DNA of 64,000 nt, from NCBI RefSeq assembly GCF_000972865.1, contig NZ_CP011144.1, positions 2,480,001-2,544,000 of the forward strand. Reading direction: 5' to 3'. A program made the position numbers and the translations under genes. The stretch's first letter is position 1. The number at the start of each line of letters is the position of its first letter. Source of the DNA: Pseudoxanthomonas suwonensis (lineage in GTDB: Bacteria > Pseudomonadota > Gammaproteobacteria > Xanthomonadales > Xanthomonadaceae). Shown piece by piece: positions 21,096 through 63,984 of this stretch. The notes beneath the pieces were generated by a model. The model was not told the DNA's origin. It saw only the letters and a list, made by a program, of their open reading frames with translations, and made no database searches.

Positions 21096-21234
21096 CGTCG
21101 TCCTTGCATGGATCGGCTGGCGCACCCGGGCGGGGAGGTCGGGGCAGGGTAACCGCTCCGGCCCGTCGCGCGGCCGGCGCGTCTTCCGGAATTGCTACCC
21201 TCGGCCCGGTTTCCCGTTGCGAGCCGCCGCGCGC

Positions 21235-48321: not shown

Positions 48322-48819
48322 TCAACTCACCGCGCTGGCTGCCTCGTACGGCAGCGGCACCGCGCCGGCCTGCATCACCGCCGCCTCGGCGCGCTGCAGT
48401 GCTGCCTCTTCGGCGTCGATCACCACCAGGATCTGCCCGGCCTCGATCGCGTCCTCGAAGCGGCGCCGCACCGGATCGGGCACGGTGGCGCCCACCAGCG
48501 CCGCCGACCAGCTGCCGACCAGCGCGCCGACCGCGGCCATCAGGCCGGCGCCGGCCAGGGTGATGCCCAGCGGTGGCACGGCCACCGCGACCAGCCCGGC
48601 GACCAGGCCGACCGCGCCGCCGCCGGCGGCGCCGCGCAGCGCGGCCGGCACCGAATCGGTGTGCGCCTCGCGCAGGTCGTCGGGCACCGACTCCATCTCG
48701 ATGTCGGAGCGGGCGATCAGCGACAGCGAGTCGCGGTCGATGCCGGTATCGCGCGCGGCCGCCAGGGCGGCCTGCGCGGCGGCGAGGTTGGGCGTGGCGT
48801 AGATGCGGCGGGTCTTCAT
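48322..48819 (-). CDS. Glycine-zipper stress-type protein
   Basis: A 165-residue protein. The N-terminal part (KTRRIYATPNLAAAQAALAA, IDRDSLSLIARSDIEME) and C-terminal part (ILVVIDAEEAALQRAEAAVM) form ferredoxin-like strands. They flank a Gly/Ala-rich hydrophobic hairpin at about 68-117 (LRGAAGGGAVGLVAGLVAVA, VGALVGSWSAALVGA). This layout recurs in general-stress proteins that insert a glycine zipper in the membrane. The ATG at 48819 is chosen over one 11 codons upstream. It is probably functionally linked to the adjacent module protein. Confidence 0.72.
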   Translation of the reverse strand: MKTRRIYATPNLAAAQAALAAARDTGIDRDSLSLIARSDIEMESVPDDLREAHTDSVPAALRGAAGGGAVGLVAGLVAVAVPPLGITLAGAGLMAAVGALVGSWSAALVGATVPDPVRRRFEDAIEAGQILVVIDAEEAALQRAEAAVMQAGAVPLPYEAASAVS

Positions 48820-48913
48820 GGTACGGGCGCTCCGACGGCCTGCGGCCGTCACTGTGGAGCGTCACTGTCGGCCCGCCGCGGTGATCCGGGCGTGAGCGCG
48901 AGGACGCCGCGGT

Positions 48914-50173
48914 TCAGCCGGCGTCGGACGGGTCGGCAGCCTCCGGGCTGCTGCGCGCCACGATCGCGGTCGCGGTCAGATCACCGGTGACGTTGCCGGT
49001 GGTGGCGAACACGTCGGGGATGGTGTCCACCGCCAGCAGCAGGCCCAGCGGCTCCACCGGCAGGCCCATCGACTGGGTCACCGGCATCACCGTGGCCATG
49101 AAGCTGACCTGGCCAGGCAGGCCGACCGAGCCCAGGCTGATCACCACCGCCAGCGCCGAACCGGCCGCCAGCTGCATCGCGCTCAGCTCGATGCCGTAGG
49201 CCCAGGCCACGAACGCCGCGGCGACGATGTACTGGATCGGGCTGGTGATCCGGAACAGGGTCACCGCCATCGGCAGCACCAGCGCGGCCACCGCGCGCGG
49301 CAGGCCCAGGCGGTCGCGCGCGCTCTCCAGCATCGCCGGCAGCGAGGCCAGCGAGGACTGGGTGCTGGCCGCCACCACCTGCGCCGGCAGGATGCCGCTG
49401 GCGAACGCCGCCGGCGAACGCCCGGCGAACATCGCCACCAGCCCGTAGCAGATGAAGATCGCGCCGATGTACATGGCGCACTGCAGGACGATGTAGCCGG
49501 CCAGCGCGCCGACCACGCCCAGCCCGGCCTGCGCGCACACCGCCAGCATCAGCGCGAACACGCCCAGCGGCGCGGCCAGCAGCACCCAGCGCACGATCAC
49601 GATCATGGTGTCGGCGATGCCGTGGCACAGGCCGATGACCTGGGCGCGGCGCTCGGACTCGATCCGGGTCAGGGCGAAGCCGAAGAACAGGGCGAACACC
49701 ACCAGCGGCAGCATCGCGCCCTGCGCGGCGGCCATGATCGCGTTGGACGGGATGACCCCGCTGATCCACTGCGCCAGGGTCGGCGCGGCGCCGGCCTCGA
49801 CCGTGGCGGCCGAGCCCTGCAGGGTCGCGGCGAGCGCTTCGCTGCGCGGCACCAGCGACAGCAGCGCCGGCGCCGCCAGCGCCGCGTAGGCGGCGAAGAA
49901 CGACAGCATTGCCACGAACACCGTCATCGCCCGCCGCGCCACCCGTCCGGAGGCGGCCGCATCCGAGGCGGTGGCCACGCCCAGGATCACCAGCGCCAGC
50001 ACCAGCGGCACCACGGTCATCTGCAGCGCGCTCAGCCACAGCCGGCCGACCGGCTGGGCGACGCCGGCGGCGGCCAGCGCCGCGTCCGGGTGCCAGTGCG
50101 CCAGCGACAGGCCGACGATCGCGCCGGCGGCCAGCGCCAGCAGCACGCGCGCGGTCGCGCCCGGCCAGCGCAT
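48914..50173 (-). CDS. Dicarboxylate/amino acid:cation symporter (DAACS)
   Basis: A 419-residue inner-membrane transporter of the GltP/DctA type, taking up glutamate, aspartate or C4-dicarboxylates with Na+ or H+. About eight helices and two re-entrant loops are visible: WLSALQMTVVPLVLALVILG, VAASTQSSLASLPAMLESAR (Ser-rich first hairpin), SLGSVGLPGQVSFMATVMPV and VDTIPDVFATTGNVTGDLTA (substrate and cation motif). It overlaps the transpeptidase gene by one base (TGATG), so it is the last gene of the leftward murein-peptide operon. Uptake of Glu or Ala released by the other enzymes would fit. Confidence 0.9.
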   Translation of the reverse strand: MRWPGATARVLLALAAGAIVGLSLAHWHPDAALAAAGVAQPVGRLWLSALQMTVVPLVLALVILGVATASDAAASGRVARRAMTVFVAMLSFFAAYAALAAPALLSLVPRSEALAATLQGSAATVEAGAAPTLAQWISGVIPSNAIMAAAQGAMLPLVVFALFFGFALTRIESERRAQVIGLCHGIADTMIVIVRWVLLAAPLGVFALMLAVCAQAGLGVVGALAGYIVLQCAMYIGAIFICYGLVAMFAGRSPAAFASGILPAQVVAASTQSSLASLPAMLESARDRLGLPRAVAALVLPMAVTLFRITSPIQYIVAAAFVAWAYGIELSAMQLAAGSALAVVISLGSVGLPGQVSFMATVMPVTQSMGLPVEPLGLLLAVDTIPDVFATTGNVTGDLTATAIVARSSPEAADPSDAG

Positions 50174-50988
50174 CAGCGCACTCCCAGGAACGGCAGGTGC
50201 CAGGTCGGCGCCAGGCGCCGGTACTCGGCCTCGGGCAGCAGCACGAAGCGCGGCGCGCGGGCTGGGTCGAGCCAGGCCAGCAGCGCTTCCATGTCGGCGT
50301 CGGCCATCGCCGTGCAGCCGGCGGTGGCCTCGCCGGGCGTGCGCCAGAGGTGGGCGAAGATGCAGCTGCCGCCGCCGGGCGCGTGCTCCGGGTTGTGCCC
50401 GATGACGAAGCCGAGGCGGTAGCGCGGGTCGCCGTCATGGTGCAGGTCCAGGCGCATCGGCTCGGTCGAGCCGGCCACGGCGGCCTGGCCGACCACGCGC
50501 GCGTCGACGATGCGGTTGTAGAGCGGCGAGTCGGGCACGTCCATGCACCAGTCGCTTTCCCGCATCGCCTGGTAGGGCAGGGCGCTGGCGGTGGCGTCGG
50601 CGTAGCCGAAGGCGGTGCCCAGCGCGAACACACCGGCCGGGCTGCGCCCATCGCCTTCGCGCTTGCGCGGCCCCTGGCCCTGGTCGGTCTGCGGATGCAG
50701 GCCCACGCCCCAGGCGCTGCCGTTGCGGCCGAGGCTGACGTCGAAGGCATCCACCTCGCGCCACACCGCGGTCTCGCCGGCGCGCTCGAGCCGGTGCAGG
50801 CGGCCCTGGTGCTCGTCCCAGCCGGCGGTGGTCACCACCACCAGCTGGCGGGCGTCGTGCAGCGGCTCGACGGGCATGGATGCCGGGTCGTGCGCCATGG
50901 CCGCGATGCCCCAGGCCAGGGCCAGGGCGGCGGCCACGGGCCAGGCGAAGCGGGATGGGCGTGCGGGTCCGGCGTGCGATGCGGCCAT
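50173..50988 (-). CDS. YkuD-type L,D-transpeptidase family protein
   Basis: A 271-residue exported protein. After a basic N-terminus and hydrophobic signal segment (FAWPVAAALALAWGIAAMA), the YkuD domain covers about 45-235: RQLVVVTTAGWDEHQGRLHR, REGDGRSPAGVFALGTAFGY and YRLGFVIGHNPEHAPGGGSC. The catalytic part IFAHLWRTPGEATAGCTAM carries the His and Cys of the family. Such enzymes make or break bonds at L-centre-D-centre positions in peptidoglycan stems. In this operon a carboxypeptidase or endopeptidase use is plausible. It lies 24 bases after the regulator gene. Confidence 0.83.
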   Translation of the reverse strand: MAASHAGPARPSRFAWPVAAALALAWGIAAMAHDPASMPVEPLHDARQLVVVTTAGWDEHQGRLHRLERAGETAVWREVDAFDVSLGRNGSAWGVGLHPQTDQGQGPRKREGDGRSPAGVFALGTAFGYADATASALPYQAMRESDWCMDVPDSPLYNRIVDARVVGQAAVAGSTEPMRLDLHHDGDPRYRLGFVIGHNPEHAPGGGSCIFAHLWRTPGEATAGCTAMADADMEALLAWLDPARAPRFVLLPEAEYRRLAPTWHLPFLGVR

Positions 50989-51012
50989 GCGGTCTCGTTC
51001 GTTGTCGGGGGA

Positions 51013-51876
51013 TCACGTGTCCAGCAGGTGCCGGATGCGCTCGAGGTTGATGCCGAGCTGGCGGTGCCGGTCCGGGTTGGCCTGGCACAGCAGCACGAAC
51101 AGGAAGTCGAGCAGGTACTGCAGCGAGGAACGGTACAGCAGCGCCTCGATGTGCGGCGAGGAGTCGTGCGCGGACACCACCAGTGCCGCGTCGGCGTGCG
51201 CGCGCAGCGGGTTGGCGGTGTGCCGGGTGATCGACACCACCTTGCCCTCGCAGGCCTGGAACTGGCGGCTGATCTGCGACAGCTGCGGCAGCTGGCCGAA
51301 CTCGGAGAACACCAGCAGCACGTCGCCGGGCCGGGCCGCCGACAGGTTGGCCATCATCAGGATCGGGTCGGAATGGTGCACCGTGAGCACGCCCAGCAGC
51401 GACAGGCGCATGCCGAACTCGCGCGCGAACAGGCCGTCGTCGCCCAGCCCGCAGACGAACACCTTGCCGGCGCCGTCGACCAGCCCGACGATCCGCTCCA
51501 TGCCCTCGCGCGGGTTGAGCAGGCGGGTCTCCTCCTCGGCGGCGGCCTTGCTGCGGCGCAGGCTCTCCTCCAGCCGGGTGTACTCGTCGCCGTCGGCCGC
51601 CGGCGCGGCCTGGGCCGGAGCGTCGGCGCCGTTGCGCGCCACCGCCTGGCCGATGCTGTACTTCAGGTCCGGGTAGCCGCGGAAGCCGAACTTCTGGCTG
51701 AACTTGACCACCGACGACTGGCTGATCCCCAGCGCGCTGGCCAGCTGCTGCGAGGAGTAGTCGCGCAGCAGGTGGGCGTTGTCGAGGATGAAGTCGGCGA
51801 TGCGGCGTTCGATCGCCGACATCTGGTCGCGTTCTGAGCGGATCTTCACCAGCGGCGGCATGGGTGCGATCTTCAT
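51013..51876 (-). CDS. RpiR/MurR-family transcriptional regulator (HTH plus SIS)
   Basis: A 287-residue regulator with an N-terminal HTH_6 domain (about 10-85: IADFILDNAHLLRDYSSQQL, ASALGISQSSVVKFSQKFGF) and a C-terminal SIS domain (about 125-270: KVFVCGLGDDGLFAREFGMR and PGDVLLVFSEFGQLPQLSQI). SIS domains of this family bind phosphosugars such as MurNAc 6-phosphate, or related cell-wall products. The gene lies within the murein-peptide operon, 32 bases after the epimerase. The palindromes at 54516-54558 are the obvious candidate operators. The exact effector is unknown. Confidence 0.87.
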   Translation of the reverse strand: MKIAPMPPLVKIRSERDQMSAIERRIADFILDNAHLLRDYSSQQLASALGISQSSVVKFSQKFGFRGYPDLKYSIGQAVARNGADAPAQAAPAADGDEYTRLEESLRRSKAAAEEETRLLNPREGMERIVGLVDGAGKVFVCGLGDDGLFAREFGMRLSLLGVLTVHHSDPILMMANLSAARPGDVLLVFSEFGQLPQLSQISRQFQACEGKVVSITRHTANPLRAHADAALVVSAHDSSPHIEALLYRSSLQYLLDFLFVLLCQANPDRHRQLGINLERIRHLLDT

Positions 51877-51908
51877 CCGGGACGGGCGCACCTGGCAACC
51901 GGCGCGGC

Positions 51909-53006
51909 TCAGCGCGCCAGCAGCTCCAGCCCGCGGATCTCGCGGATGCCCAGGCCGGGCGCGTCGGTGACGGTGATTTCCGACTCGTCGAAGATCACCC
52001 CGCCCTCGACCGGGTTGAACTGGCCCAGCGAGGGGCCGTCCAGGTCGACCTTGGTGATGACGTCGGCCTTGGCCACCGCCAGGTGCACGGCGGCGGCCAC
52101 CGAGATGGCCGACTCGATCATGCAGCCGATCATGCACTGCACCCCGTACAGCGCGGCGATGTCGGCGATCCGGATGGCGTTGGACAGGCCGCCGGTCTTC
52201 ATCAGCTTGATGTTGATGATGTCGGCGGCGCGGCGCTCGATCAGGTCGAACACGTCGGTCGGGCCGAACACGCTCTCGTCGGCCATGACCGGGGTGTGCA
52301 CGCGCTCGGTGACGTACTTCAGGCCCTCGATGTCGGCGGCCTTGACCGGCTGCTCGAGCAGTTCCAGCAGCACCCCGGCGTCCTCCAGGGTGCTCATCGC
52401 GTACACCGCCTGCTTGGGGGTCCAGCCCTGGTTGGCGTCCAGGCGCAGCAGGGCGCGGCCCTCGACCGCGGCGTGGATCGCCTTGACCCGCTCGATGTCC
52501 AGGCCGATGTCCTTGCCGACCTTGATCTTCAGCGAGTCGAAGCCGCGATCGACCGCGGCGATCGAGTCGGCCACCATCTTGTCGATGTGGTCCACGCTGA
52601 TGGTGATGTCGGTGGTGATCACCGGGTCGCCGCCGCCGAGCATCTTGTACAGCGGCGCGCCGTAGAGCTGGCCCCACAGGTCGTAGACGGCGATCTCCAC
52701 CGCGGCCTTGGCGCTGGTGTTGCGCTCCAGCGCGCCCTGGATCAGCCCGCAGACGCGGTTGAGGTTGGCCACGTCCTGGCCGATCAGGCGCGGCTTGATG
52801 TGGCGGTCGATCGCCTCGACGATCGAACCATGGGTGTCGCCGGTGATCACCGCGGTGGCCGGCGCCTCGCCGTAGCCGGTGTGGCCGCTGTCGGTGCGCA
52901 CCAGCACCACGATGTCCTCGACCGTGTCGACGGTGCGCAGCGCGGTCTTGAACGGGGTCTTCAGCGGCACGCGCAGCATGCCGAGTTCGATGTCCGTGAT
53001 CTTCAT
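51909..53006 (-). CDS. L-Ala-D/L-Glu (dipeptide) epimerase, enolase superfamily
   Basis: A 365-residue muconate-lactonising-subgroup enolase homologue expected to epimerise L-Ala-D-Glu to L-Ala-L-Glu in murein peptide breakdown. Catalytic Lys pair K160-I-K162 (DSLKIKVGKD), metal ligands Asp190 (LRLDANQGW), Glu218 (LLEQPV) and Asp243 (VMADESV), and Lys267 (INIKLMKTGG) are all present. The substrate-specificity region near the C-terminus reads CMIESAISVAAAVHLA, with the DLDGPS motif typical of dipeptide epimerases. It overlaps the NlpC/P60 gene by four bases (ATGA). Dipeptide scope could be broader than Ala-Glu. Confidence 0.87.
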   Translation of the reverse strand: MKITDIELGMLRVPLKTPFKTALRTVDTVEDIVVLVRTDSGHTGYGEAPATAVITGDTHGSIVEAIDRHIKPRLIGQDVANLNRVCGLIQGALERNTSAKAAVEIAVYDLWGQLYGAPLYKMLGGGDPVITTDITISVDHIDKMVADSIAAVDRGFDSLKIKVGKDIGLDIERVKAIHAAVEGRALLRLDANQGWTPKQAVYAMSTLEDAGVLLELLEQPVKAADIEGLKYVTERVHTPVMADESVFGPTDVFDLIERRAADIINIKLMKTGGLSNAIRIADIAALYGVQCMIGCMIESAISVAAAVHLAVAKADVITKVDLDGPSLGQFNPVEGGVIFDESEITVTDAPGLGIREIRGLELLAR

Positions 53007-54481
53007 GGAGTGGCCGGATTGGGGGAGGACACGGGCCGTATCCTCTGGATGCTGGTCATGCGGTCGACGTAGGTCTCGGTCTCGCCGAACAGCATCGGCT
53101 CGAGCGGGGTGACCGCCACGCCGTTGAGGCCGGCGCGCACGCGGGCGCCGTCGGCGCCGCGCCAGCTGCCGCCGTTGGTGTCGTGGATCACGAACGCCAG
53201 GCCGCGCTGGTGGCCGATGGCCATCATCACGTGGCCGGGGATGTATATCAGGTCGCCGACCTGCAGCTGGCGCACCGCGGCCATGCGCTTGTCGCGGCCG
53301 TCCTCCGGGGCGAAGCCGATCCGGTCCAGCGCCGGGCTCACCGCCTGGTCACGGGTGTTGCGCGGGACCAGGATGCCGAAGCTGCGGTAGATCTCCGAGA
53401 CGAAGCCGCTGCAGTCGCGCGCGTCGTAGCTGTGGCCCCAGCCGTAGCGCTCGCCGAGGAACTTGAACGACTGGCGGACCAGGTGCGCCGGGGTCAGCGG
53501 CAGGTAGTCGTGGGCGACGTCGGCCGAGCGGGCGATCAGCGCCGGCGCCAGCGCCAGGCTGCCGTCGGCGTTGCGCACCGGCAGCTCGACCACGTGCGAG
53601 GCGTAGGGATGCTGGCCGTTGACCGGCCGGTCCGGCGGCAGGTCGGTGCGCAGCGGCAGGCGCACGCCCATGTCCAGCTGCAGCGCCGACACGCGTGGTT
53701 CTTCCGGCGTGTAGTTGGTGCGCACGGTGGCGCCTGTCATGACCAGGTACGGCGCGCGCTGCGCGTAGCCGAGGACCGTGCCGCGGTCGCCGGTGGCCAC
53801 GTGCCGGGCCTCGATCCAGGCCGCGTAGCGCTCGCTGGCCACGAACAGCCACTGCCGGTCGCGGCTCTCGTGCAGCACCGCCACCGCGTCGCCCGGGAAC
53901 AGCGCCGATTCCTGGAAGCGGTCGATGTCGGTCTCGCCCGCGCTGCTGAACGCCCGCAGCCGGGTCGGGAAGGCGCGCAGGTCGGCGCGGTGCACGACCA
54001 GGCCGTAGCGCAGCGGGCGGGTGGCCGGGATCGCGTCCAGCGCCAGCGCGCGCTGCAGCGCGGCCAGCTCGCGCGGCGGCAGCGGCTTGCCGTGCACGTC
54101 GTACAGGGTGCGGGTGGGCGGCGCCGACAGCGCCTCGATCTTCTCCCGCACCAGCGCCCGCGGCAGCGGCTCGGGCAGAGCGGCGATGTCGACGATCGAC
54201 TTGTCTTCGCTGCGCATGCGCGCGTTCTGCGCGGCGATGCCGGCGCGGTCGAGGATCACCCGGTCCGGGTCGGCCAGCTGCGCGAGCCAGTGCCCGGGCG
54301 TCAGGTCGGCGTGGCGGACCTCGACCACCGCGGTCGGCGCATCGGCGGCCGGCGGCGCGGCCAGGGCGGGCAGGGCGGCCGCAAGCAGCGCAGCCAGCAG
54401 CGGCGCGGACAGCCACGGCCGGGCGCACCCGTGGCGGAGCGGGTACGGCCGTGCAATCGAAACCTTGTTCGCGGCGCTCAT
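53003..54481 (-). CDS. Exported SH3-NlpC/P60 murein peptide endopeptidase
   Basis: A 492-residue exported cysteine peptidase. The signal peptide is LSAPLLAALLAAALPALAAP. Middle strands (about 155-235: YGLVVHRADLRAFPTRLRAF, WLFVASERYAAWIEARHVA) form SH3-like domains as in YkfC. The NlpC/P60 domain at about 335-490 has Cys357 (DARDCSGFVSEI), His417 (IPGHVMMAIG) and His433 (VIHDTNGG). YkfC-type enzymes cut gamma-D-Glu to diaminopimelate in tri- and tetrapeptides. First gene of the leftward operon, starting 34 bases from the nearest palindrome of the intergenic operator region. Confidence 0.88.
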   Translation of the reverse strand: MSAANKVSIARPYPLRHGCARPWLSAPLLAALLAAALPALAAPPAADAPTAVVEVRHADLTPGHWLAQLADPDRVILDRAGIAAQNARMRSEDKSIVDIAALPEPLPRALVREKIEALSAPPTRTLYDVHGKPLPPRELAALQRALALDAIPATRPLRYGLVVHRADLRAFPTRLRAFSSAGETDIDRFQESALFPGDAVAVLHESRDRQWLFVASERYAAWIEARHVATGDRGTVLGYAQRAPYLVMTGATVRTNYTPEEPRVSALQLDMGVRLPLRTDLPPDRPVNGQHPYASHVVELPVRNADGSLALAPALIARSADVAHDYLPLTPAHLVRQSFKFLGERYGWGHSYDARDCSGFVSEIYRSFGILVPRNTRDQAVSPALDRIGFAPEDGRDKRMAAVRQLQVGDLIYIPGHVMMAIGHQRGLAFVIHDTNGGSWRGADGARVRAGLNGVAVTPLEPMLFGETETYVDRMTSIQRIRPVSSPNPATP

Positions 54482-54515
54482 CTGGCCGGTCCTCCCCTGG
54501 GGGCGCAGTGCGGAA

Positions 54516-54558
54516 GAATAGTTATTCCGAATATTCGCGCAGTCAAGAATAAATTATT
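54516..54558. promoter_or_regulatory. Bidirectional promoter with three phased palindromes
   Basis: The 134 bases between divergent operons contain an AT-rich core unlike the surroundings. Three perfect palindromes lie there: GAATA-GT-TATTC (54516-54527), GAATATTC (54529-54536) and AATAA-A-TTATT (54548-54558). Centres are about 11 and 20.5 bases apart, near one and two helical turns. A leftward -35 (TTGACT, minus strand, 54541-54546) and a rightward -35 (TTGACC, 54557-54562, with TACACC 17 bases on) are plausible. The palindromes would then overlap both promoters. The RpiR/MurR-type regulator in the leftward operon is the likely binder. Confidence 0.65.
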
Positions 54559-54615
54559 GACCCGCTACCGGACCCGTGTTACACCAGCGCTACCACCGGC
54601 CGGGGAAGTGTCGTC

Positions 54616-56187
54616 GTGGAAGCCCGCTGTTGCCAGCCTGTCGCCTCGAACCCGCCGCCGCGCCCCCCGCGCCGCGGCCGGCGTGCCGTGTGGCCGGCGT
54701 TGTGCCTGCTGGCCGCCGCGATCGGGGCCAGCGCCCAGGCCGGCGCGCCGGCGTCGGCCCTGGAGACGACCGTCGCCGCGGTGGACCGGGGCGATTTCCT
54801 CGGCGCCGAAGCGGCGATCGAGGCGGCGCTGTCGCAGCCGGGCCTGGCCGCCGCCCAGCGCCAGGCGCTGCTGTTCGAGCGCGAGCGCATGCGCCGCATC
54901 CGCCTGGACTTCACCCTGGACCGCGCCGCCGCGCTGGCGCAGCTGCGCCGGTCCATCCCCGACCTGCGCGAGGCCGAATTCGACGCCTGGGACCAGGCCG
55001 GGCTGGTCGAGCGCATGGACATCGATGGCGAGCCACGCTACTTCAAGCGCGCCGTTTCCAACCTGTTCCGGCTCAGCCCGGAGGCCGCCGCACGCCGCGC
55101 GCCGCCGGTGCGGCCGTTCAGCGAAGGGCCGTATGAACGCCTGCACCCGCACCACGCCGAAGTGCTCGCCGCCGCGGGCGGCGGCGCGACCAGCGTGGCG
55201 CCGCGCCGGCTGCGGGTGACCCAGTCGCTGGTGGTCGACGCCGACGCGGTGCCGGCCGGCGAGACCATTCGCGCCTGGATCCCGTACCCGCGCGCGATCG
55301 CGGGCCAGCAGGAGGACATCCGCCTGCTCGGCAGCGTGCCGGCCGGCGGCCAGGTCGCGCCGGAGTCGGCGCTGCAGCGCACCGCCTACCTGGAGCGCAC
55401 CGCAGTGGCCGGCGAGCCGACGCCGTTCTCGGTGAGCTACGAGCTGACCGTGTACGGCCGCCACTTCGCGATCGACCCGCAGCACGTGCAGCCCACGCCC
55501 GGCGACCCGGCGCTGGCGCCGTACCTGGCCGAACAGCCGCCGCACATCGTGTTCACCCCGGCGCTGCGCGAGTTCTCGGCGCGGGTCGTCGGCGACGAGA
55601 CCCATCCCTACCGGATCGCGCAGAAGCTGTTCGCGGCGGTGGACGACATTCCGTGGGCCGGTGCGCGCGAATACTCGACGATCTCCAACATCAGCGACCA
55701 CGCGCTGCACGCCGGCCACGCCGACTGCGGCCAGCAGACCCTGCTGCTGATGGCGCTGCTGCGGCTCAACGGCATCCCCGCGCGCTGGCAGTCCGGCTGG
55801 GTCTACTCCGACGACGCGGTCGGCTACGACAACATGCACGACTGGGGCTGGCTGTACCTGGCGCCCTACGGCTGGGTGCCGATGGACGTGACCACCGGCC
55901 GGCTCGACAGCGACGACCCGGCGCTGCGCTGGTTCTACCTCGGCGGCCTGGACGCGTACCGGATCGCCTTCAACGACGACTATTCGCGGGACTTCGTTCC
56001 GGCCAAGCACCACTTCCGCTCCGAGACCGTGGATTCGCAGCGCGGCGAGGCGGAGTGGCGCCGCGGGAACCTCTATTTCGACCAATGGGACTACCGGTTC
56101 GAATGGCAACTGCTGCCGGCAGGCAATGAAGCCACCAAGGCGGGCGGGGACAACATCAACACCACTGTGGGAGAGACACGGGGATGA
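54616..56187 (+). CDS. Exported transglutaminase-like cysteine peptidase
   Basis: A 523-residue exported protein of the transglutaminase-like superfamily. GTG start at 54616 with GGGGAAG upstream; the signal segment is AVWPALCLLAAAIGASAQAG. The N-terminal half (about 45-300) is helical then strand-rich (RLRVTQSLVVDADAVPAGET, IRAWIPYPRA). The catalytic domain has Cys371 (GHADCGQQTLLLMALLRL), His408 (NMHDWGWLYL) and Asp424 (GWVPMDVTTG). It probably cleaves peptides, possibly stem peptides, in the periplasm. It is the first gene of the rightward operon and overlaps the receptor gene by four bases. Confidence 0.85.
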   Translation: MEARCCQPVASNPPPRPPRRGRRAVWPALCLLAAAIGASAQAGAPASALETTVAAVDRGDFLGAEAAIEAALSQPGLAAAQRQALLFERERMRRIRLDFTLDRAAALAQLRRSIPDLREAEFDAWDQAGLVERMDIDGEPRYFKRAVSNLFRLSPEAAARRAPPVRPFSEGPYERLHPHHAEVLAAAGGGATSVAPRRLRVTQSLVVDADAVPAGETIRAWIPYPRAIAGQQEDIRLLGSVPAGGQVAPESALQRTAYLERTAVAGEPTPFSVSYELTVYGRHFAIDPQHVQPTPGDPALAPYLAEQPPHIVFTPALREFSARVVGDETHPYRIAQKLFAAVDDIPWAGAREYSTISNISDHALHAGHADCGQQTLLLMALLRLNGIPARWQSGWVYSDDAVGYDNMHDWGWLYLAPYGWVPMDVTTGRLDSDDPALRWFYLGGLDAYRIAFNDDYSRDFVPAKHHFRSETVDSQRGEAEWRRGNLYFDQWDYRFEWQLLPAGNEATKAGGDNINTTVGETRG

Positions 56188-59100
56188 ACAGCAGGACTTT
56201 CAGGAAAGCCGCACTGTGCGTGGCGCTGGGTGCATGCATCGGGGCGATGGCGCCGATGGCGATGGCGCAGAGCGCCACCGGCGCAGTCGCCGGCCGTGCC
56301 ACCGCGGGCGACCAGATCACCATCATCAACACCGCCACCGGCACCAGCCGGACGGTCACCGTCGGCACGGACGGCAGCTACCGCCTGACCCAGCTGCCGA
56401 TCGGCGACTACCGGTTGCAGCTGGTGCGCAACGGCCAGCCGGTGGGCGACGGCGTCGTCGTCAACGTGACCATCGGCGGCACCACCGCGGTCAACCTGGG
56501 CACCGAAGGTGCCCTGGTCAACCTGGACGTGGTCGAGGTGGTCGGCTCGCGCGTGATCAACCGCGTCGACGTGTACTCCACCGAGGTGTCGACCACCATC
56601 AACCGCGAGGAACTGGCGCGCCTGCCGGTGGCGCAGAGCCTGACCTCGGTGGCCCTGCTCGCGCCCGGCGTGATCACCGGCAACTCGTCGTTCGGCGGCA
56701 TCTCCTTCGGCGGTTCCTCGGTGGCCGAGAACTCGGTGTTCATCAACGGCCTGAACGTCACCGACTTCTACCGGCGCCAGAGCTTCTCCACCGCGCCGTT
56801 CGACTTCTTCCAGGAGTTCCAGGTCAAGACCGGCGGCTATTCGGTCGAGTTCGGCCGCGCCACCGGCGGCGTGCTCAACGCGGTCACCCGCCGCGGCAGC
56901 AACGAGTTCGACGGCGGCGTGACCTTCACCTTCGAGCCGGCCGCGTTGGAGTCCACCGCCAAGGACCACTACTACGACGACGGCAACATCAACGTCCGCT
57001 CCAGCCGCGACCACGACAGCTTCATGAAGGCCAACGTCTGGGCCTCCGGTCCGGTGGTCAAGGACCGGGTGTTCCTGTTCGCGATGTACGAACAGCGCGA
57101 AGGCAACGCCGGCTACACCAATGCCCTGGGCAGCACCTGGACCGAGACCGAAGGCAGCAACGGTTTCTGGGGCGCCAAGCTGGACTGGAACATCACCGAC
57201 AACCACCTGCTCGAGCTGCTGGCATTCTCCGACAAGACCGAGACCGGGCTGAACGCCTACGCCTACAACTGGGCCAACGCGACCACCACCAGCTTCACCG
57301 GCAGCAGCACGTCGCAGGGCGGCGGCGACAGCGGGTCGATCACCTACACCGGCCGCTTCGGCGAGAACTTCACCGCCAAGGCCATGTACGGCGTGAACCA
57401 GAGCCGCGCGCTGGTGTTCTCGCCAGCCGACGGCGCCTGCTCGCAGGTGCTGATCGACAACGCCAGCTACGGCACCGCCTACGCCGCCATGGGGCGTCCG
57501 CCGGTGAGCTGCCATCCCAGTCCGAGCAGTTCGGTGGTCGACCACCACGACGAGCGCGAAGTGGGGCGTCTGGATTTCGAGTGGTCGCTTGGCGACCACC
57601 TGGTGCGCTTCGGCCTCGACCGCGAGCTGATGAGCACCGAGCGCAGCACCTTCTATCCGGGTCCGACCCAGCAGCGCTATACGGTCTACGGCCGGACCAC
57701 TCCCTTCCCGAACCAGGTGCTCGGCAACAACGTGCCGCTGCCCGCGGGTGTCGATGCCTTCGTCATGGGCCGCAGGCGCATCGACGGCGGCAAGTTCGAC
57801 ACCACCGCCAACGCCTGGTACGTGGAGGACATCTGGAGCGTCACCCCCAGCCTGGTGCTGAACCTGGGCGTGCGCGTGGATGCGTTCGAGAACAAGACCG
57901 CCGCTGGCGGCAGCTTCATCAAGATGGACAACCTGGTGTCCCCGCGCCTGGGCTTCTCGTGGGACGTGAAGGACGACGGCCGGATGAAGCTGTTCGGCAA
58001 CGCCGGCCGCTACTACCTGCCGGTCACCAACAACATCAACTACACCTTCGCCGGCGGCCTGATCGACGAGTACACCTACTGGGCGCTCAATGGCTGGCAG
58101 CAGGCGACCAATCCGGTCACCGGCGCGTCGTACATGACGCCGGTGCTGGGTGCGCAGATCGGACCGGTGGACGACGACATGAACGTCACCGTCGGCGACC
58201 TGCGCCAGAGCGTGGACCGCGACCTGGAGGCGGTCTACCAGGACGAGTTCATCCTCGGCTTCCAGGGCATGATCAGCCAGACCTGGTCGTGGGGTGTCAA
58301 CGGCACCTACCGCAAGATGGAAGGTGCGCTGGACGACGTCCGCATCAACGCGATCTGCGGCGTCCGCCACGGCACCCTGTTCCCGATCGCCAACCCGGGC
58401 GACGAACTGACCCTGTGGGGCACCACGGCGATGGGCTGCGCCCAGGACGGCTGGGTCACCATCGATACCTCCAAGGAGGGTTACATCACCGTCGGCAGCA
58501 ACCGCATCGTCGGCTACAAGGACCCGCGCCGCACCTACAAGGCGGTGGAGTTCCAGATCGACCGCGCCTGGGACGACAAGTGGGCGTTCAACGCCTCCTA
58601 CCTGTGGTCGAAGCTGGAGGGCAACCACGAGGGCCCGGTCAACTCCGACACCAACTACGGCGACACCGGCATGGTCCAGCACTGGGACCACCCGGCCAAC
58701 AACGAGCGCTACGGCGACCTGTTCAACGATCATCGCCACCAGGTCAAGCTGCGCGGCAGCTACAAGCTCAACGAGATGTGGACCTTCGGCAGCACGCTGA
58801 CCGCGCTGTCCGGCGCCCCGATCACCGCCTTCGGCGTGACCTGGCCGGACGAGAACTTCGCCGTGGCCAGCTTCACCACCGAGGGCAGCGGCGGCGGCAC
58901 GGGCTGGATCTGCGTGGCCAACTGCGGCGTCTGGGACCAGCGCGTGCACGAGTTCACCGAGCGCGGTGCGTTCGGGCGCATGCCATGGACCTACAACCTC
59001 GGCGCCAGCGTGACCTGGACTTTCCCGGTCGACGGGATCGACCTGAGGGCACGGTTCTCGATCTACAACCTGCTCAACGAGCAGGAAGTGATCAACGTGC

Positions 59101-59207
59101 GCCAGCGCTATGAGTCCAGCCCGGGTACGGTCCGCCCGTACTTCGGCACCGGCACCCGCTGGCAGTCCCCGCGCTACGCGCAGCTGGTGGTGAGCTGGAA
59201 CTTCTGA
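56184..59207 (+). CDS. Oar-like TonB-dependent receptor
   Basis: A 1007-residue outer-membrane receptor for active uptake. Signal peptide about 1-28 (AALCVALGACIGAMAPMAMA). A carboxypeptidase-regulatory-like domain (about 32-105: GAVAGRATAGDQITIINTAT, GSYRLTQLPIGDYRLQLV) precedes a probable TonB box near LDVVEVVGSR. The plug (about 135-240) includes INREELARLPVAQSLTSVAL, FINGLNVTDFYRRQSF and YSVEFGRATGGVLNAVTRRG. The 22-strand barrel follows and ends RYAQLVVSWNF. In its operon it is flanked by cell-wall peptidases, so muropeptides or other peptides are the likely cargo. Complete, with no frameshift. Confidence 0.92.
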   Translation: MNSRTFRKAALCVALGACIGAMAPMAMAQSATGAVAGRATAGDQITIINTATGTSRTVTVGTDGSYRLTQLPIGDYRLQLVRNGQPVGDGVVVNVTIGGTTAVNLGTEGALVNLDVVEVVGSRVINRVDVYSTEVSTTINREELARLPVAQSLTSVALLAPGVITGNSSFGGISFGGSSVAENSVFINGLNVTDFYRRQSFSTAPFDFFQEFQVKTGGYSVEFGRATGGVLNAVTRRGSNEFDGGVTFTFEPAALESTAKDHYYDDGNINVRSSRDHDSFMKANVWASGPVVKDRVFLFAMYEQREGNAGYTNALGSTWTETEGSNGFWGAKLDWNITDNHLLELLAFSDKTETGLNAYAYNWANATTTSFTGSSTSQGGGDSGSITYTGRFGENFTAKAMYGVNQSRALVFSPADGACSQVLIDNASYGTAYAAMGRPPVSCHPSPSSSVVDHHDEREVGRLDFEWSLGDHLVRFGLDRELMSTERSTFYPGPTQQRYTVYGRTTPFPNQVLGNNVPLPAGVDAFVMGRRRIDGGKFDTTANAWYVEDIWSVTPSLVLNLGVRVDAFENKTAAGGSFIKMDNLVSPRLGFSWDVKDDGRMKLFGNAGRYYLPVTNNINYTFAGGLIDEYTYWALNGWQQATNPVTGASYMTPVLGAQIGPVDDDMNVTVGDLRQSVDRDLEAVYQDEFILGFQGMISQTWSWGVNGTYRKMEGALDDVRINAICGVRHGTLFPIANPGDELTLWGTTAMGCAQDGWVTIDTSKEGYITVGSNRIVGYKDPRRTYKAVEFQIDRAWDDKWAFNASYLWSKLEGNHEGPVNSDTNYGDTGMVQHWDHPANNERYGDLFNDHRHQVKLRGSYKLNEMWTFGSTLTALSGAPITAFGVTWPDENFAVASFTTEGSGGGTGWICVANCGVWDQRVHEFTERGAFGRMPWTYNLGASVTWTFPVDGIDLRARFSIYNLLNEQEVINVRQRYESSPGTVRPYFGTGTRWQSPRYAQLVVSWNF

Positions 59208-59272
59208 CCGGCATTCCGGTGCCACGCCGCGCGGTCCGTGCGGCGTGGCACCGGAGGCGGGCACGAGGAACG

Positions 59273-60841
59273 ATGGTCATGCGTTGTCCCCTCCCTTTTG
59301 CGGCCGCCCTGGCGGCCGCCCTTGTTTTCGCCGTCCCGCCGTCCCGCGCCGCGACCGACGAGGCGGCACGCATCGCGCGCGCGGTGGACGACACCGTCGC
59401 CCGCTACGGTCTGCCCGGGATCGCGGTGGGCGTGGTCCGCGACGGACGGGTCGTTGCGGTGGAAACGCGCGGCGAACTGTCGGCCGGTGGCGGCGAGCCG
59501 GTCTCCCCGGACACCTTGTTCAAGATCGCCTCCAACACCAAGGCGATGACCGCCGGCGTGCTGGCACGGCTGGTCGATGCCGGCAAGCTGCAGTGGGACG
59601 ACCCGGTGACCAGGCACCTGCCGCAGTTCCGCATGCACGACCCCTGGGTTACCGCGAACATGCAGGTGCGCGACCTGCTGATCCACAACAGCGGGCTGGG
59701 CCTGGGCGCCGGCGACCTGATGCTGTGGCCTGAGCCCAACGACTTCACCCGCGCCGACATCATCGCCGGGTTGCAGCACCTCAAGCCGGTGGGCAGCTTC
59801 CGTTCGGAGTACGCCTACGACAACCTGCTGTACGTGGTCGCCGGCGAGGTCGCGGCGGCGGCAGCCGGCATGCCCTTCGACGAGCTGGTGCGGCGCGAAC
59901 TGTTCGAGCCGCTGGGCATGGACGGCTGCCGGGTCGGCCAGTGGCGGCTGGACCAGGCCGGCAGCGTCGCCCAGCCGCACCGGCGCGTGGACGGCCGCAG
60001 CGTGCCCGTGCGCGAGGACGGCGCGGTGGTGCCCGACATCACCTCGATGGCCGCCGGCGGCATCCGCTGTGGCCTGGACGACATGCTCAGGTGGGTCGGC
60101 ATGTGGCTGGACCCTGCGCATCCGTGGCTGTCGCCGGCGCAGCGGCGCGCGGTATGGACCGCGCACATGCCGATGCCGGTCAGCGAGCGCATGCGCCAGT
60201 GGGACAACAGCCACTTCTCCGCCTACGGCTACGGCTGGCGCCTGTCCGACGTGCAGGGCCAGTGGAAAGTGGCCCATACCGGCACGCTGATGGGCATGTA
60301 CTCCTCGGTGATCCTGCTACCGGACCTGCGCACCGGCATCGTGATCCTGATCAACGGCCCGGGCGAGGCGGCGCGTACTGCCCTGGGCCAGGTGCTGATG
60401 GAGCAGGCGATCGACCCGGCCTCGCGCTCCGACGTGGCCCACTACGCAGGGCTGTTGGACCAGGAGCGCGCGAACCGCGCCGCGCGCCAGCCGCTGCCGG
60501 ATACCTCGTCGCGACGGCCGGCCGGAGCCGCCGAAGCCGCGGCCCTGCTGGGCGTCTGGCGCGATCCGTGGTTCGGCGAGGTGGCGATCTGCCCGCGCGC
60601 CGACGGGATCGGCGTCGCCTCGGCGCGTTCGCCGCTGATGCGCGGCCGCCTGATGCGGGTCGGCGAGCGCTGGCTGGTGGACTGGGACGACGACAGCGTC
60701 GATGCCGAAGCCTGGCTGCACCCGCCTTCCCGCGACGGTGGCGACGGCGCTACCCTGACCGTGTCGCACGTCGATCCGGATGCGGACTTCAGCTACGACT
60801 ATGCCGACCTCGCCTTCGCCCGCCAGCGTGATTGCCCCTGA
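59273..60841 (+). CDS. Serine beta-lactamase-fold hydrolase (S12 family) with C-terminal domain
   Basis: A 522-residue exported penicillin-recognising hydrolase. ATG at 59273 follows GAGGAA; ATG 59279 is an alternative. The signal peptide is LPFAAALAAALVFAVPPSRA. The class-C type active site is complete: Ser87-x-x-Lys90 (ASNTK), Tyr182-x-Asn184 (YDN) and His335-Thr-Gly (AHTGTLMG). Residues about 420-520 form a separate strand-rich domain (LGVWRDPWFGEVAI, GRLMRVGERWLVDWD), as in D-aminopeptidase or AmpH-like proteins. In the locus it may be a D,D-peptidase or D-amino-acid amidase acting on wall peptides. It is not a clear antibiotic-resistance enzyme. Confidence 0.88.
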   Translation: MVMRCPLPFAAALAAALVFAVPPSRAATDEAARIARAVDDTVARYGLPGIAVGVVRDGRVVAVETRGELSAGGGEPVSPDTLFKIASNTKAMTAGVLARLVDAGKLQWDDPVTRHLPQFRMHDPWVTANMQVRDLLIHNSGLGLGAGDLMLWPEPNDFTRADIIAGLQHLKPVGSFRSEYAYDNLLYVVAGEVAAAAAGMPFDELVRRELFEPLGMDGCRVGQWRLDQAGSVAQPHRRVDGRSVPVREDGAVVPDITSMAAGGIRCGLDDMLRWVGMWLDPAHPWLSPAQRRAVWTAHMPMPVSERMRQWDNSHFSAYGYGWRLSDVQGQWKVAHTGTLMGMYSSVILLPDLRTGIVILINGPGEAARTALGQVLMEQAIDPASRSDVAHYAGLLDQERANRAARQPLPDTSSRRPAGAAEAAALLGVWRDPWFGEVAICPRADGIGVASARSPLMRGRLMRVGERWLVDWDDDSVDAEAWLHPPSRDGGDGATLTVSHVDPDADFSYDYADLAFARQRDCP

Positions 60842-61586
60842 GCCACGGCGCCAGACCGGCGCGGCCCCATCGCGCCGTCGCGGTACCGGCGTGGCGGCGC
60901 TGCTGCTGTCCGTGCTTGCCACGGGGTGGGCCGCGGCGGCCGAGCCGCCGCGCCTGTCATCCGCGCGCGACGCCGGCGAGGCCGGCATGGTCGACGTCCT
61001 GCAGCTGGCGCCGGACATCGAAGTGGAGATGCGCTACGCCGGCAGCGACAACTTCACCGGCGCGCCGGTGCCCGGCTACGACGCCAACCGCTGCTACCTG
61101 CTGCAGCCGGTCGCCGAGGCGCTGGCCCGGGTGCAGGCCTCGCTGCGCGCTGAAGGCCTGGGCCTGCGCGTGTACGACTGCTACCGGCCCACGCATTCGG
61201 TACAAAGCTTCGTGCGCTGGATCGAGCGGCCAGACGATCCGGCGCTCAAGGCGCGCTGGTACCCCAACGTCGACAAGTCGGCGCTGATGCCCGGCTACAT
61301 CGGCCAGGTCTCCGGCCACAGCCGCGGCGCGACCGTCGACCTGACCCTGGTCCGCTGCGACGGGGACGGCTGCACGCCGCTGGACATGGGCACGCCCTAC
61401 GACTTCTTCGATCCGCTGGCGAACACCGACGACCCCGGGATCGACGCGCGACAGCGCGCCCACCGCCACCACCTGCGCGAGGCGATGGCCGCGCAGGGGC
61501 TGGCCAACTATCCGATGGAGTGGTGGCACTTCACCCTGCGCCCGGAGCCGGACCCGCACACCGCCTACGACTTCCCGGTGCGCTGA
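60828..61586 (+). CDS. VanX/DdpX-type D-Ala-D-Ala dipeptidase
   Basis: A 252-residue exported zinc dipeptidase of family M15D, cleaving D-Ala-D-Ala. GTG at 60828 lies 14 bases inside the preceding gene and yields a signal peptide (VAALLLSVLATGWAAAAEP); ATGs upstream add residues without benefit. Zinc ligands His164 and Asp171 (SGHSRGATVDLTLV) and His234 (MEWWHFTL), the catalytic base Glu231, and the Arg in DCYRPTHSVQSF are all present. The export signal separates it from cytoplasmic VanX of glycopeptide resistance and fits periplasmic breakdown of murein peptides. Confidence 0.88.
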   Translation: MIAPEPRRQTGAAPSRRRGTGVAALLLSVLATGWAAAAEPPRLSSARDAGEAGMVDVLQLAPDIEVEMRYAGSDNFTGAPVPGYDANRCYLLQPVAEALARVQASLRAEGLGLRVYDCYRPTHSVQSFVRWIERPDDPALKARWYPNVDKSALMPGYIGQVSGHSRGATVDLTLVRCDGDGCTPLDMGTPYDFFDPLANTDDPGIDARQRAHRHHLREAMAAQGLANYPMEWWHFTLRPEPDPHTAYDFPVR

Positions 61587-61777
61587 TGGCGGACTGGGTG
61601 GAACGGTGCTGTCCGTACTGCGGCGAGCGCATCGACCTGGCGATCGACGCCAGCGCCGGCGACCAGGACTACGTCGAGGACTGCCAGGTCTGCTGCCGCC
61701 CGATCGCGATCCGGGTGCGGGTGGAGGACGCGGATGGCGGGCCGCGGGTCAGCCTCCGGCGCGACGACGAGGCCTGA
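61586..61777 (+). CDS. CPXCG-motif cysteine-rich protein
   Basis: A 63-residue protein with two Cys pairs: CCPYCGE near residue 8 and DCQVCCRPI near residue 33, the CPXCG (zinc-ribbon-like) family. It starts in a TGATG overlap with the VanX-type gene, so it is the last gene of the rightward operon. The family is small and uncharacterised, probably zinc binding. Its C-terminus is strongly acidic then basic. Confidence 0.85.
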   Translation: MADWVERCCPYCGERIDLAIDASAGDQDYVEDCQVCCRPIAIRVRVEDADGGPRVSLRRDDEA

Positions 61778-61975: not shown

Positions 61976-62401
61976 ATGCACCCACTCATGAACCTGCCAC
62001 TGCACACAGGCTTGCTAGGCGCCCTCGAAGCCGGCCTCATCGCCTTCGCCATCGGCGTGCTCGTCTACGCGCTGTGGGCCTGGATCTGCCGCCGCGCCGG
62101 TTTGGCCATCGGCCATGCGTTGGGCTGGGGAATGGCGATCGCGGTCGTCATCGCCGCCGGCCTGGACAGCTGGAACCTGTTCTACCTGGGTATTGCCCGA
62201 CTGGAATCACCGCTCTACGCGCGCCTGGCGCTGGCCGGTATCCACGATCCGGATTTCCTCGGCACCCGCGTGTTGCTGCAGATCGTCGGTGCGCTGTCGG
62301 GCACGGTGCTGGGCTGGTGGCTGTTCAGCGGGCGCATGGCTGGCCGGCACGACGTTGAAGTGCCGGGTAGCGGCGAAAATCCGCCCGGACAGGGCCATTG
62401 A
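61976..62401 (+). CDS. Three-helix membrane protein of unknown function
   Basis: A 141-residue protein with hydrophobic segments at about 12-38, 46-68 and 98-118 and a soluble, charged tail (RHDVEVPGSGENPPGQG). ATG at 61976 or 61988. No domain was recognised. The 198-base gap upstream contains the 21-bp hairpin and no other feature. Confidence 0.6.
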   Translation: MHPLMNLPLHTGLLGALEAGLIAFAIGVLVYALWAWICRRAGLAIGHALGWGMAIAVVIAAGLDSWNLFYLGIARLESPLYARLALAGIHDPDFLGTRVLLQIVGALSGTVLGWWLFSGRMAGRHDVEVPGSGENPPGQGH

Positions 62402-62992: not shown

Positions 62993-63255
62993 TCCGTTGG
63001 TCCGGGTATAGGCCGCACGGCAACGGCAAGAGCGTTTGGGGTGCTGGGCTTCGGTCTGAGCCGCGGCAGGCCGGGTGTGTTGCTGGTCGTCCCGGCGGCA
63101 CATTCATGTGCCGACTCGCCGACGCGGCCATCCCTGGCCGCTGCCGCAGCACACCCGGCCCGCACGTCTTCGGGGCGCCCACCGTTCGTGGCTTCGTTCG
63201 ATGCGTGGGACGCACTGCTATCCTGCGCGCTATTACGCATCGGCCGGTGCCCCAC

Positions 63256-63984
63256 ATGCACGACATCCGCCTGGTCGGCTTCGACGGCGACGACACGCTC
63301 TGGCGCAGCGAGGACTACTACCGCGCCGCCGAGAAGCAGTACGAGGAAATCATCGGCCGCTACATCGACCTGCACGACGCCGGCACCCTGCGCCACCTGC
63401 TCGAGGTCGAGCGGCGCAACCTCCAGGTGTTCGGCTACGGCGTCAAGGGCATGACCCTGTCGATGATCGAGGCGGCGATCGAACTGACCGACGGCCGCAT
63501 CGCCGCGCGCGACCTGCAGCAAGTGGTGGAGATCGGTCGCGCCACGCTGCAGCACCCGGTCGAACTGATCGACGGCGTCCGCGAGGCGGTGTCGGCGATC
63601 GCCGCCGAACTGCCGGTGGTGCTGATCACCAAGGGCGACCTGTTCCACCAGGAGGCCAAGATCGCCAGCTCGGGGCTGGCCGACCTGTTCCCGCGGATCG
63701 AGATCGTCTCGGAGAAGGACCCGCCGACCTACGCGCGCGTGCTGGCGGAGTTCGGCATCGACGCGGCGCAGTTCGTGATGGTCGGCAATTCGCTGCGCTC
63801 GGACATCGAGCCGGTGGTGCGGCTGGGCGGCTGGGGCGTGCACGTGCCCTACGCACTGACCTGGGCGCACGAGGCCGAACATGGCCTGGCCGAGGCGCAT
63901 CCGCGCGTGCTGTCGGTGGAATCGGCGGCGCAGTTGCCGCCGGCGGTGCGCGGCATCGTCGAAGCGGCGCGCAACGGCGGCTGA
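63256..63984 (+). CDS. HAD-superfamily hydrolase (YjjG/phosphatase-like)
   Basis: A 242-residue phosphatase of the haloacid dehalogenase superfamily. Motif I is VGFDGDDTLWRSED (nucleophile Asp8 or 10 in the DxDxT-like DGDDTLW), motif II VLITKGDLFHQEAK, motif III the Lys in SEKDPPTYARVLAEFG and motif IV VMVGNSLRSDIEPVVRLGGW. The cap domain lies between residues about 18 and 95. ATG at 63256 places motif I at the N-terminus. Small-molecule phosphate monoesters such as nucleotides are typical substrates. The gene is complete; the last 16 bases of the window hold no feature. Confidence 0.88.
   Translation: MHDIRLVGFDGDDTLWRSEDYYRAAEKQYEEIIGRYIDLHDAGTLRHLLEVERRNLQVFGYGVKGMTLSMIEAAIELTDGRIAARDLQQVVEIGRATLQHPVELIDGVREAVSAIAAELPVVLITKGDLFHQEAKIASSGLADLFPRIEIVSEKDPPTYARVLAEFGIDAAQFVMVGNSLRSDIEPVVRLGGWGVHVPYALTWAHEAEHGLAEAHPRVLSVESAAQLPPAVRGIVEAARNGG

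Follow-up and report, generated by a model that had tools for sequence, protein, structure and literature searches.

Recycling of cell wall peptides is mostly known as an inward, cytoplasmic process, while polysaccharide-utilisation style TonB loci bring together a receptor, exported hydrolases, an inner-membrane transporter and a local regulator. In the Bacillus ykfABCD and Escherichia coli ycjG-mpaA tripeptide pathway, according to passages of PMC2954226, an endopeptidase for the gamma-D-Glu|diaminopimelate (DAP) bond adjoins an L-Ala-D/L-Glu epimerase in a catabolic branch of wall recycling. Passages of PMC7860986 state that the enzymes PnpA, DvLysin and EcgA cut the gamma-D-Glu-meso-DAP (mDAP) bond specifically and act on muropeptides, give the DvLysin/PnpA-type build as a c-clip, two SH3b domains and an NlpC/P60 domain, and propose that PnpA aids in obtaining nutrients. 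In the MurD2-MurL pathway of Xanthomonas oryzae, MurL makes wall D-Glu on a UDP-N-acetylmuramic acid (MurNAc) dipeptide, and according to PMC5808125 no D to L activity was detected. We describe a ten-gene locus that shares features with each of these. It lies in a stretch of 64,000 nucleotides (the window), positions 2480001-2544000 of the single 3.89-Mb contig of Pseudoxanthomonas suwonensis, and its two operons diverge around a conserved 17-bp element.

It is probable, in our judgement, that the locus serves the regulated utilisation of peptidoglycan stem peptides, which come at least in part from outside the cell. Stem-peptide catabolism is well supported by sequence; import of peptides from outside is likely, the receptor ligand and the outside origin being presumed. 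Among 93 full orthologous loci, the genes for the NlpC/P60 endopeptidase (NlpC), epimerase, RpiR-family regulator, S12 hydrolase and a TonB-dependent receptor were found together within about 21 kb or less in 83, which supports the reading of a first-pass annotation of this DNA, namely a murein stem-peptide degradation locus, as one kept in relatives. That annotation would have been refuted had relatives shown no such neighbourhood, and the locus withstands this check. The features are as follows.

48914-50173, minus strand: SDF (DAACS) transporter; PF00375, 274.7 bits
50173-50988, minus strand: YkuD-domain protein; PF03734, 26.4 bits against a cut-off of 23.4
51013-about 51861, minus strand: RpiR-family regulator (HTH_6 + SIS); most likely start 51861, chosen after ortholog L013
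51909-53006, minus strand: L-Ala-D/L-Glu-type dipeptide epimerase; best solved relative the B. subtilis enzyme 1jpm/1tkk, 341 bits
53003-54481, minus strand: NlpC/P60 endopeptidase with SH3_6; Pfam SH3_6 and NLPC_P60, DvLysin closest
54545-54561, minus strand: conserved 17-bp element GTCAATAATTTATTCTT; candidate operator for both operons
54616-56187, plus strand: transglutaminase-like cysteine peptidase; PF01841, 57.8 bits
56184-59207, plus strand: Oar-type TonB-dependent receptor (plug, OMP_b-brl_4); family search
about 59273-60841, plus strand, alternative start 59219: S12 serine hydrolase (SxxK, YxN, HxG); PF00144, 217 bits
60780-61586, plus strand: M15/VanX-type dipeptidase; VanX structure 1r44, 152 bits
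61586-61777, plus strand: CPXCG cysteine-rich protein; PF14255, 81.8 bits

All ten genes are open frames at the positions first proposed. At the starts chosen, neighbouring genes overlap by 1-4 bases or are separated by 24-65 bases, except that the VanX-type frame, read from its first start codon, overlaps the S12 gene by 62 bases. The operons do diverge from an AT-rich region, as had been noted: A and T make up 42% of the 134-base gap (54482-54615) and 62% of 54516-54565, whereas their share in the window as a whole is 29%.

Conservation of the locus among relatives

Relatives were collected with the NlpC protein as query against genome contigs, which gave 323; the 80 best of these served as loci. 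A further 40 stretches were hand-picked from other NlpC-bearing genomes of the family for wider genus cover, making 120 loci, or 116 after removal of four duplicates. The 93 full loci cover 8.9 kb or more towards the receptor and 5.5 kb or more in the opposite direction. L118 was removed from the full set by hand: its genome was already represented by another NlpC neighbourhood, and it has neither RpiR regulator nor 17-bp site. A gene was counted as present at 40% identity or more anywhere within the stretch, strict order not being required. Under a looser rule (60 bits, or 35 for CPXCG) receptor counts fall from 81 to 80 on moving to the identity threshold, alternative receptors from 13 to 11 and DUF819 proteins from 14 to 13. 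Separately, 247 genomes of the window's family (Xanthomonadaceae) served for gene and element counts.

The frequencies of individual genes in the full loci are graded. NlpC is present in all 93 by selection, followed by the epimerase (90), S12 hydrolase (87), RpiR regulator (86), YkuD protein (83), Oar-type receptor (80), transglutaminase-like peptidase (78), M15 protein (62), SDF transporter (50) and CPXCG protein (14). The first-pass annotation had treated the ten genes as one complete set. Its core is conserved, but the window's nine types without CPXCG occur together in only 22/93 loci, or 52/93 if any of three transporters is accepted. CPXCG is doubtful as a member of the system, given its 14/93 loci and a search that is insensitive for a protein of 63 residues. 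The genes on either side occur less widely than most of these (13 for 48322-48852, 40 for 61976-62401 and 40 for the HAD gene at 63250-63984) and, since the arrangement recurs in relatives while its flanks sit in fewer loci, it is not a product of chance. Just beyond the locus, at 45182-47371 on the plus strand, the window holds a GH3 glycosidase with an Fn3-like domain.

The epimerase gene immediately follows that for NlpC in all 116 of the loci that have it (120 examined, duplicates included). Across the family NlpC occurs in 177/247 genomes and the epimerase in 164/247: 164 genomes have both, 13 NlpC alone, none the epimerase alone and 70 neither. Among 321 genomes drawn from the class, six match NlpC at an E-value of 1e-20; two of the six do not belong to the family, and their matches are weak, at 29-30% identity. 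A plasmid search with the NlpC protein gave no match at 1e-20.

The 12 best NlpC relatives with titles comprise 11 from Pseudoxanthomonas and one Lysobacterales metagenome-assembled genome (MAG), their best segments being 74-85% identical. The best 80 of the 323 relatives cover Pseudoxanthomonas, Stenotrophomonas, Luteimonas, Lysobacter, Xanthomonas, Fulvimonas, one [Pseudomonas] hibiscicola and MAGs of the same order. A tie to predation, suggested earlier, finds no echo in this distribution: among these 80 titled loci 59 are from Stenotrophomonas or Pseudoxanthomonas and about nine from Lysobacter, and the locus is therefore not confined to lytic genera.

The 17-bp element and the RpiR-family regulator

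The element was found in a palindrome scan upstream of NlpC in the 120 loci (duplicates included) plus the window, where AATAA-N-TTATT appears in 91/121 cases against about two in random slices. With up to three mismatches allowed, it was found once in the window, against an expectation of 0.00. The same scan of the whole genome gave two matches, one exact and one with three mismatches; because the reversed-pattern control also yields two, the exact copy alone stands out. At no more than one mismatch the 247 family genomes contain 96 copies in 92 genomes, and none of the reversed pattern. All 92 genomes are NlpC-positive and no copy lies in the 70 NlpC-negative genomes; 177 genomes are NlpC-positive, and 85 of them lack a copy at this threshold. 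Of the 96 copies, 91 are located upstream of NlpC and oriented like it, 70 of them within 450 bases and 21 more within 1500 bases; three are elsewhere and two could not be placed. The element is probably a DNA switch site, almost exclusive to this cluster. Additional copies were seen at L109:14665 (two mismatches), before an alternative receptor and away from NlpC, and at G375:C4:40159 (one mismatch), 22 kb from NlpC and 1.4 kb from a second epimerase gene.

The site also follows the regulator. Allowing three mismatches, regulator and site occur together in 83 full loci, the regulator alone in three (L075, L094 and L123), the site alone in none and neither in seven (p = 1.3e-8, kinship ignored), so that the element is missing from 7/7 full loci without an RpiR gene. 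Reduced loci that have neither regulator nor element are L092, L093, L096, L097, L099, L102 and L129. The site keeps its place beside the receptor operon even where another receptor or a DUF819 gene fills the gap. The RpiR protein likely controls both operons through the element, a binding predicted here from co-occurrence. Like all calls on export in this work, that on the regulator was made by eye from the N-terminal stretch, and no signal-like stretch was seen. Its earlier description as MurR-type is not borne out: with the MurR equivalog model the protein reaches 78.9 bits, where the cut-off is 408, and the best match in the genome to MurQ (TIGR00274) reaches 26.8 bits against 302.

The gap between the operons contains one terminator-like match and a single promoter-like match, on the NlpC strand (0.0 expected in shuffles), whose second hexamer, AATAAT at 54558-54553, is inside the element.

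Enzymes, receptor and transporters

Catalytic residues are conserved in nearly all orthologs of the locus enzymes. The best solved relative of the NlpC protein is 3m1u (94.4 bits), then 6sqx (56.1 bits), a chain of 499 residues which we take to be PnpA. 3m1u is DvLysin, according to a passage of PMC7860986. The enzyme had been considered YkfC-type, a subfamily in which the free amine of L-Ala is bound by an Asp, residue 256 in BcYkfC (from passages of PMC2954226). That assignment does not stand, the window protein having Asn375 at this position and its orthologs Asn in 116/116, with the correspondence set by the YGW..DCS..PR pattern and not by structure. A second mark of the YkfC subfamily is a Tyr in SH3b1 (BcYkfC Tyr118), but the NlpC/P60 chain 3h41 aligns with the window protein over the catalytic part only. 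Pfam calls only SH3_6 and NLPC_P60, and the N terminus is signal-like by eye. The enzyme is expected to accept sugar-bearing stems, since its closest solved relative DvLysin belongs to the muropeptide-active group; the Asn, too, would suit a stem whose N terminus is substituted.

In the epimerase Arg24 is present in 111/112 orthologs and both Asp residues of the DxD motif in 112/112, matching the L-Ala-D/L-Glu enzyme of B. subtilis, which is also its closest solved relative. The Arg24 loop and the DxD motif are, we assume, marks of L-Ala-D/L-Glu epimerases. No signal peptide is seen by eye in the protein. MurL is encoded in this genome, beside MurD (824.8 bits, cut-off 700), and a profile search found no match to glutamate racemase there. 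Racemase exceeds the cut-off in 2/247 family genomes, with some match, mostly weak, in 83/247; the epimerase is present in neither of the two and in 164/245 of the others (p = 0.11). Because, of the two D-Glu enzymes looked for, MurL is reported to run from L to D only and glutamate racemase was not detected, the epimerase would be a catabolic return step, a plausible route for wall D-Glu back to L-Glu. Classical wall recycling seems to be in place, through a permease of the AmpG family (417.8 bits against a cut-off of 350), a carboxypeptidase of the S66 family (145.7 bits) and Mpl (594.2 bits against 388.7). As these lie elsewhere in the genome, the locus is not the housekeeping recycling set.

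The YkuD protein, with a predicted N-terminal helix, has His213 and Cys225 in 94/94 orthologs. Its model has a predicted local distance difference test score (pLDDT) of 88 and weak fold matches (E 0.03-0.16), two of the top three being named L,D-transpeptidase, and the protein appears L,D-transpeptidase-like, possibly an L,D-carboxypeptidase. The transglutaminase-like peptidase, exported by appearance, retains each of Cys371, His408 and Asp424 in 93/94 orthologs; its model (pLDDT 84) best matches 3isr, a putative cysteine protease, with pseudomurein endoisopeptidases found only at E 0.03-0.14. A second protein with a transglutaminase core, of 285 residues, is encoded outside the locus at window positions 34178-35035 on the minus strand. 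The S12 motifs SxxK, YxN and HxG occur in 97-98/98 orthologs. In the M15/VanX protein, which also appears exported, the His, Asp, Glu and His of SxHxxGxxxD and EWWH, seen aligned with 1r44 and presumably the VanX motifs, are conserved in 71-72/73.

Some orthologous loci contain further enzymes. Relatives of diaminopimelate decarboxylase, at least 64% identical, are present in 20/93 full loci, and an example from L068 scores 456.5 bits with TIGR01048 (lysA), the cut-off being 297.9. All 11 genomes checked among those with the locus decarboxylase hold another lysA-type match, of 282-311 bits, in an open frame of 882-1214 residues elsewhere that fits a fused aspartokinase-decarboxylase. The locus copy looks dedicated, since the same genomes carry this other one. 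The window's genome has two lysA matches, the better of the fused kind, and neither within the locus. An Amidase_2 (N-acetylmuramoyl-L-alanine amidase-type) protein occurs in 12/93 loci and an M19 dipeptidase in 6/93, each named from one example. Decarboxylase, amidase and dipeptidase all fit with stem-peptide catabolism.

The receptor is of a type that we take to be Oar. Relatives at 40% identity or more are found in 80/93 loci, an alternative TonB receptor in 11/93 and one or the other in 84/93. The receptor and the transglutaminase-like gene travel together: 77 loci have both, one the transglutaminase alone, three the receptor alone and 12 neither (Fisher p = 1.4e-11, kinship ignored). Inner-membrane transporters are more variable, with SDF in 50/93 loci, an APC permease in 38/93, a DUF819 protein in 13/93 and at least one of the three in 89/93. 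An APC permease is also encoded in the window outside the locus (19788-21125, minus strand), 66% identical to the permease of the Stenotrophomonas rhizophila locus (L020).

The proposal that the DAACS protein is a Glu/Ala symporter conflicts with an alignment to solved aspartate transporters, in which FRITS stands where the family has NMDGT, and Ala where it has its substrate Arg. The NMDGT motif and an Arg for the substrate carboxylate near the last helix mark the glutamate/aspartate symporters of this family. Phe-Arg occupies the first two NMDGT positions in 57/57 orthologs, and the substrate-Arg position is Ala in 45, Cys in eight and Ser in four. This conserved subclade, which has lost the customary substrate Arg but bears an Arg within the stretch corresponding to NMDGT (57/57), is possibly a new substrate class.

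Proposed pathway, alternatives and known systems

From sequence we infer the enzyme activities, their localisation, the receptor ligand, the transporter substrate and the binding of regulator to site that make up the following scheme. The TonB receptor would carry murein fragments across the outer membrane, where the exported lysin-type NlpC/P60 enzyme would cut gamma-D-Glu|DAP, YkuD and S12 would act at D-Ala ends and M15 on D-Ala dipeptides; the transglutaminase-like peptidase would join the digestion, at a bond that we leave unspecified. The exported enzymes would leave amino acids and L-Ala-D-Glu, to be taken in by the inner-membrane transporter, and the cytoplasmic epimerase would convert L-Ala-D-Glu to L-Ala-L-Glu, cleavable by ordinary dipeptidases. 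In some relatives an amidase would free the peptide from MurNAc, and in some an extra DAP decarboxylase would convert DAP to lysine. The RpiR protein would govern both operons via the 17-bp element. More tentatively, and with rather less confidence than doubt, we suggest that a family with peptide-level synthesis of wall D-Glu (MurL one-way, no racemase) has a dedicated TonB-dependent system for murein-peptide import and catabolism under a private RpiR switch, the enolase-superfamily epimerase reversing the stereochemistry of MurL at the dipeptide level, which would spare the cell any handling of free D-Glu.

Several observations count against a stem-peptide utilisation locus. Relatives of VanX are present in only 62/93 loci and CPXCG in 14/93, and some family assignments fall short of NCBIfam equivalog cut-offs (epimerase 257.9 against 500 and 107.9 against 343; VanX 185.4 against 320; the regulator with the MurR model, as given above), as does the Amidase_2 example of that for AmpD (99.3 against 143). 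The DAACS substrate residues are lost and an unrelated APC permease is present in 38/93 loci; for both receptor types the murein ligand is presumed, with family membership as the basis for their importer role. The ten genes include no cytoplasmic dipeptidase and no sugar genes, and the contrast between racemase and epimerase comes from two genomes. As for the element, it may be partly core promoter, because the sole promoter-like match of the gap places its -10-like hexamer within it, and it could belong to the receptor promoter, because regulator-less loci mostly also lack the usual receptor operon. We keep the operator reading because all 17 bases are conserved and the element follows the regulator.

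Finally, the NlpC enzyme could act on the cell's own sacculus, since it is outside the subfamily specific for free stem peptides. This bears on a rival explanation, salvage of the cell's own wall peptides shed into the periplasm in turnover, with the receptor importing something else or recapturing lost fragments. In its favour, NlpC, YkuD, permease and mostly the epimerase are retained in some reduced loci from which the usual receptor operon is missing (e.g. L093 and L097). We nevertheless consider this explanation unlikely, given that one of the two TonB receptor types is found in 84/93 full loci with the element beside it, and that AmpG-family permease, S66 carboxypeptidase and Mpl already suit own-wall recycling.

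The receptor and transporters are unspecific by sequence, and S12 proteins take many substrates with D residues, their solved relatives including a D-amino acid amidase and esterases. General scavenging of D-residue peptides (e.g. nonribosomal or D-Ala-containing), with murein one source among them, could account for this, yet the DAP decarboxylase and Amidase_2 protein of orthologous loci indicate murein and the pocket residues of the epimerase agree with the L-Ala-D/L-Glu enzyme, making such breadth improbable. A response to envelope stress or cell-wall antibiotics, in which the VanX-like, S12 and YkuD proteins remodel the wall, strikes us as hardly credible. It is prompted by family overlap with beta-lactamase and VanX models and with L,D-transpeptidases, but van clusters include a ligase gene, which is lacking among the ten, and epimerase, DAP decarboxylase, M19 and permeases suit catabolism better than resistance.

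If the more tentative reading above is true, muropeptides would be served by a system built on an outer-membrane receptor, in which the receptor and the inner-membrane transporter can each be exchanged as modules. The locus occurs in genomes of Stenotrophomonas, Pseudoxanthomonas, Lysobacter and Luteimonas. It suggests that wall peptides have a route of their own in this family, regulated, linked to the outer membrane and connected with the unusual synthesis of D-glutamate. It also supplies a receptor that can be tested, a candidate for the operator and, for most of the enzymes, a predicted substrate. Among the matches listed in the open-licence literature there was no account of the locus, or of TonB muropeptide import in the family, which is weak evidence of absence.

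We present it as a conserved, probable murein stem-peptide utilisation locus, nowhere found named, and a variant of both wall-peptide catabolism and TonB utilisation loci. With the latter it shares the kinds of gene, but its substrate would be a peptide and the ten genes include no SusD partner. Like the ykfABCD and ycjG-mpaA pathway, as far as passages of PMC2954226 describe it, the locus places a gamma-D-Glu|DAP endopeptidase next to an L-Ala-D/L-Glu epimerase; it differs in its lysin-type, apparently exported NlpC, replacing YkfC or MpaA, and in the presence of a TonB receptor, of enzymes of the D-Ala type, of an RpiR regulator accompanied by a conserved element and, in some loci, of a DAP decarboxylase. 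Compared with DvLysin, PnpA and EcgA (passages of PMC7860986), from which gamma-D-Glu-mDAP specificity is expected given that DvLysin (3m1u) is the closest solved relative, the locus NlpC sits in a conserved operon with epimerase and uptake genes. With the MurD2-MurL pathway, in the parts of PMC5808125 cited, it has in common the epimerisation of glutamate at the peptide level, and this genome contains MurL as well; MurL builds D-Glu into the wall precursor, whereas the epimerase of the locus belongs to the enolase superfamily and is expected to be catabolic.

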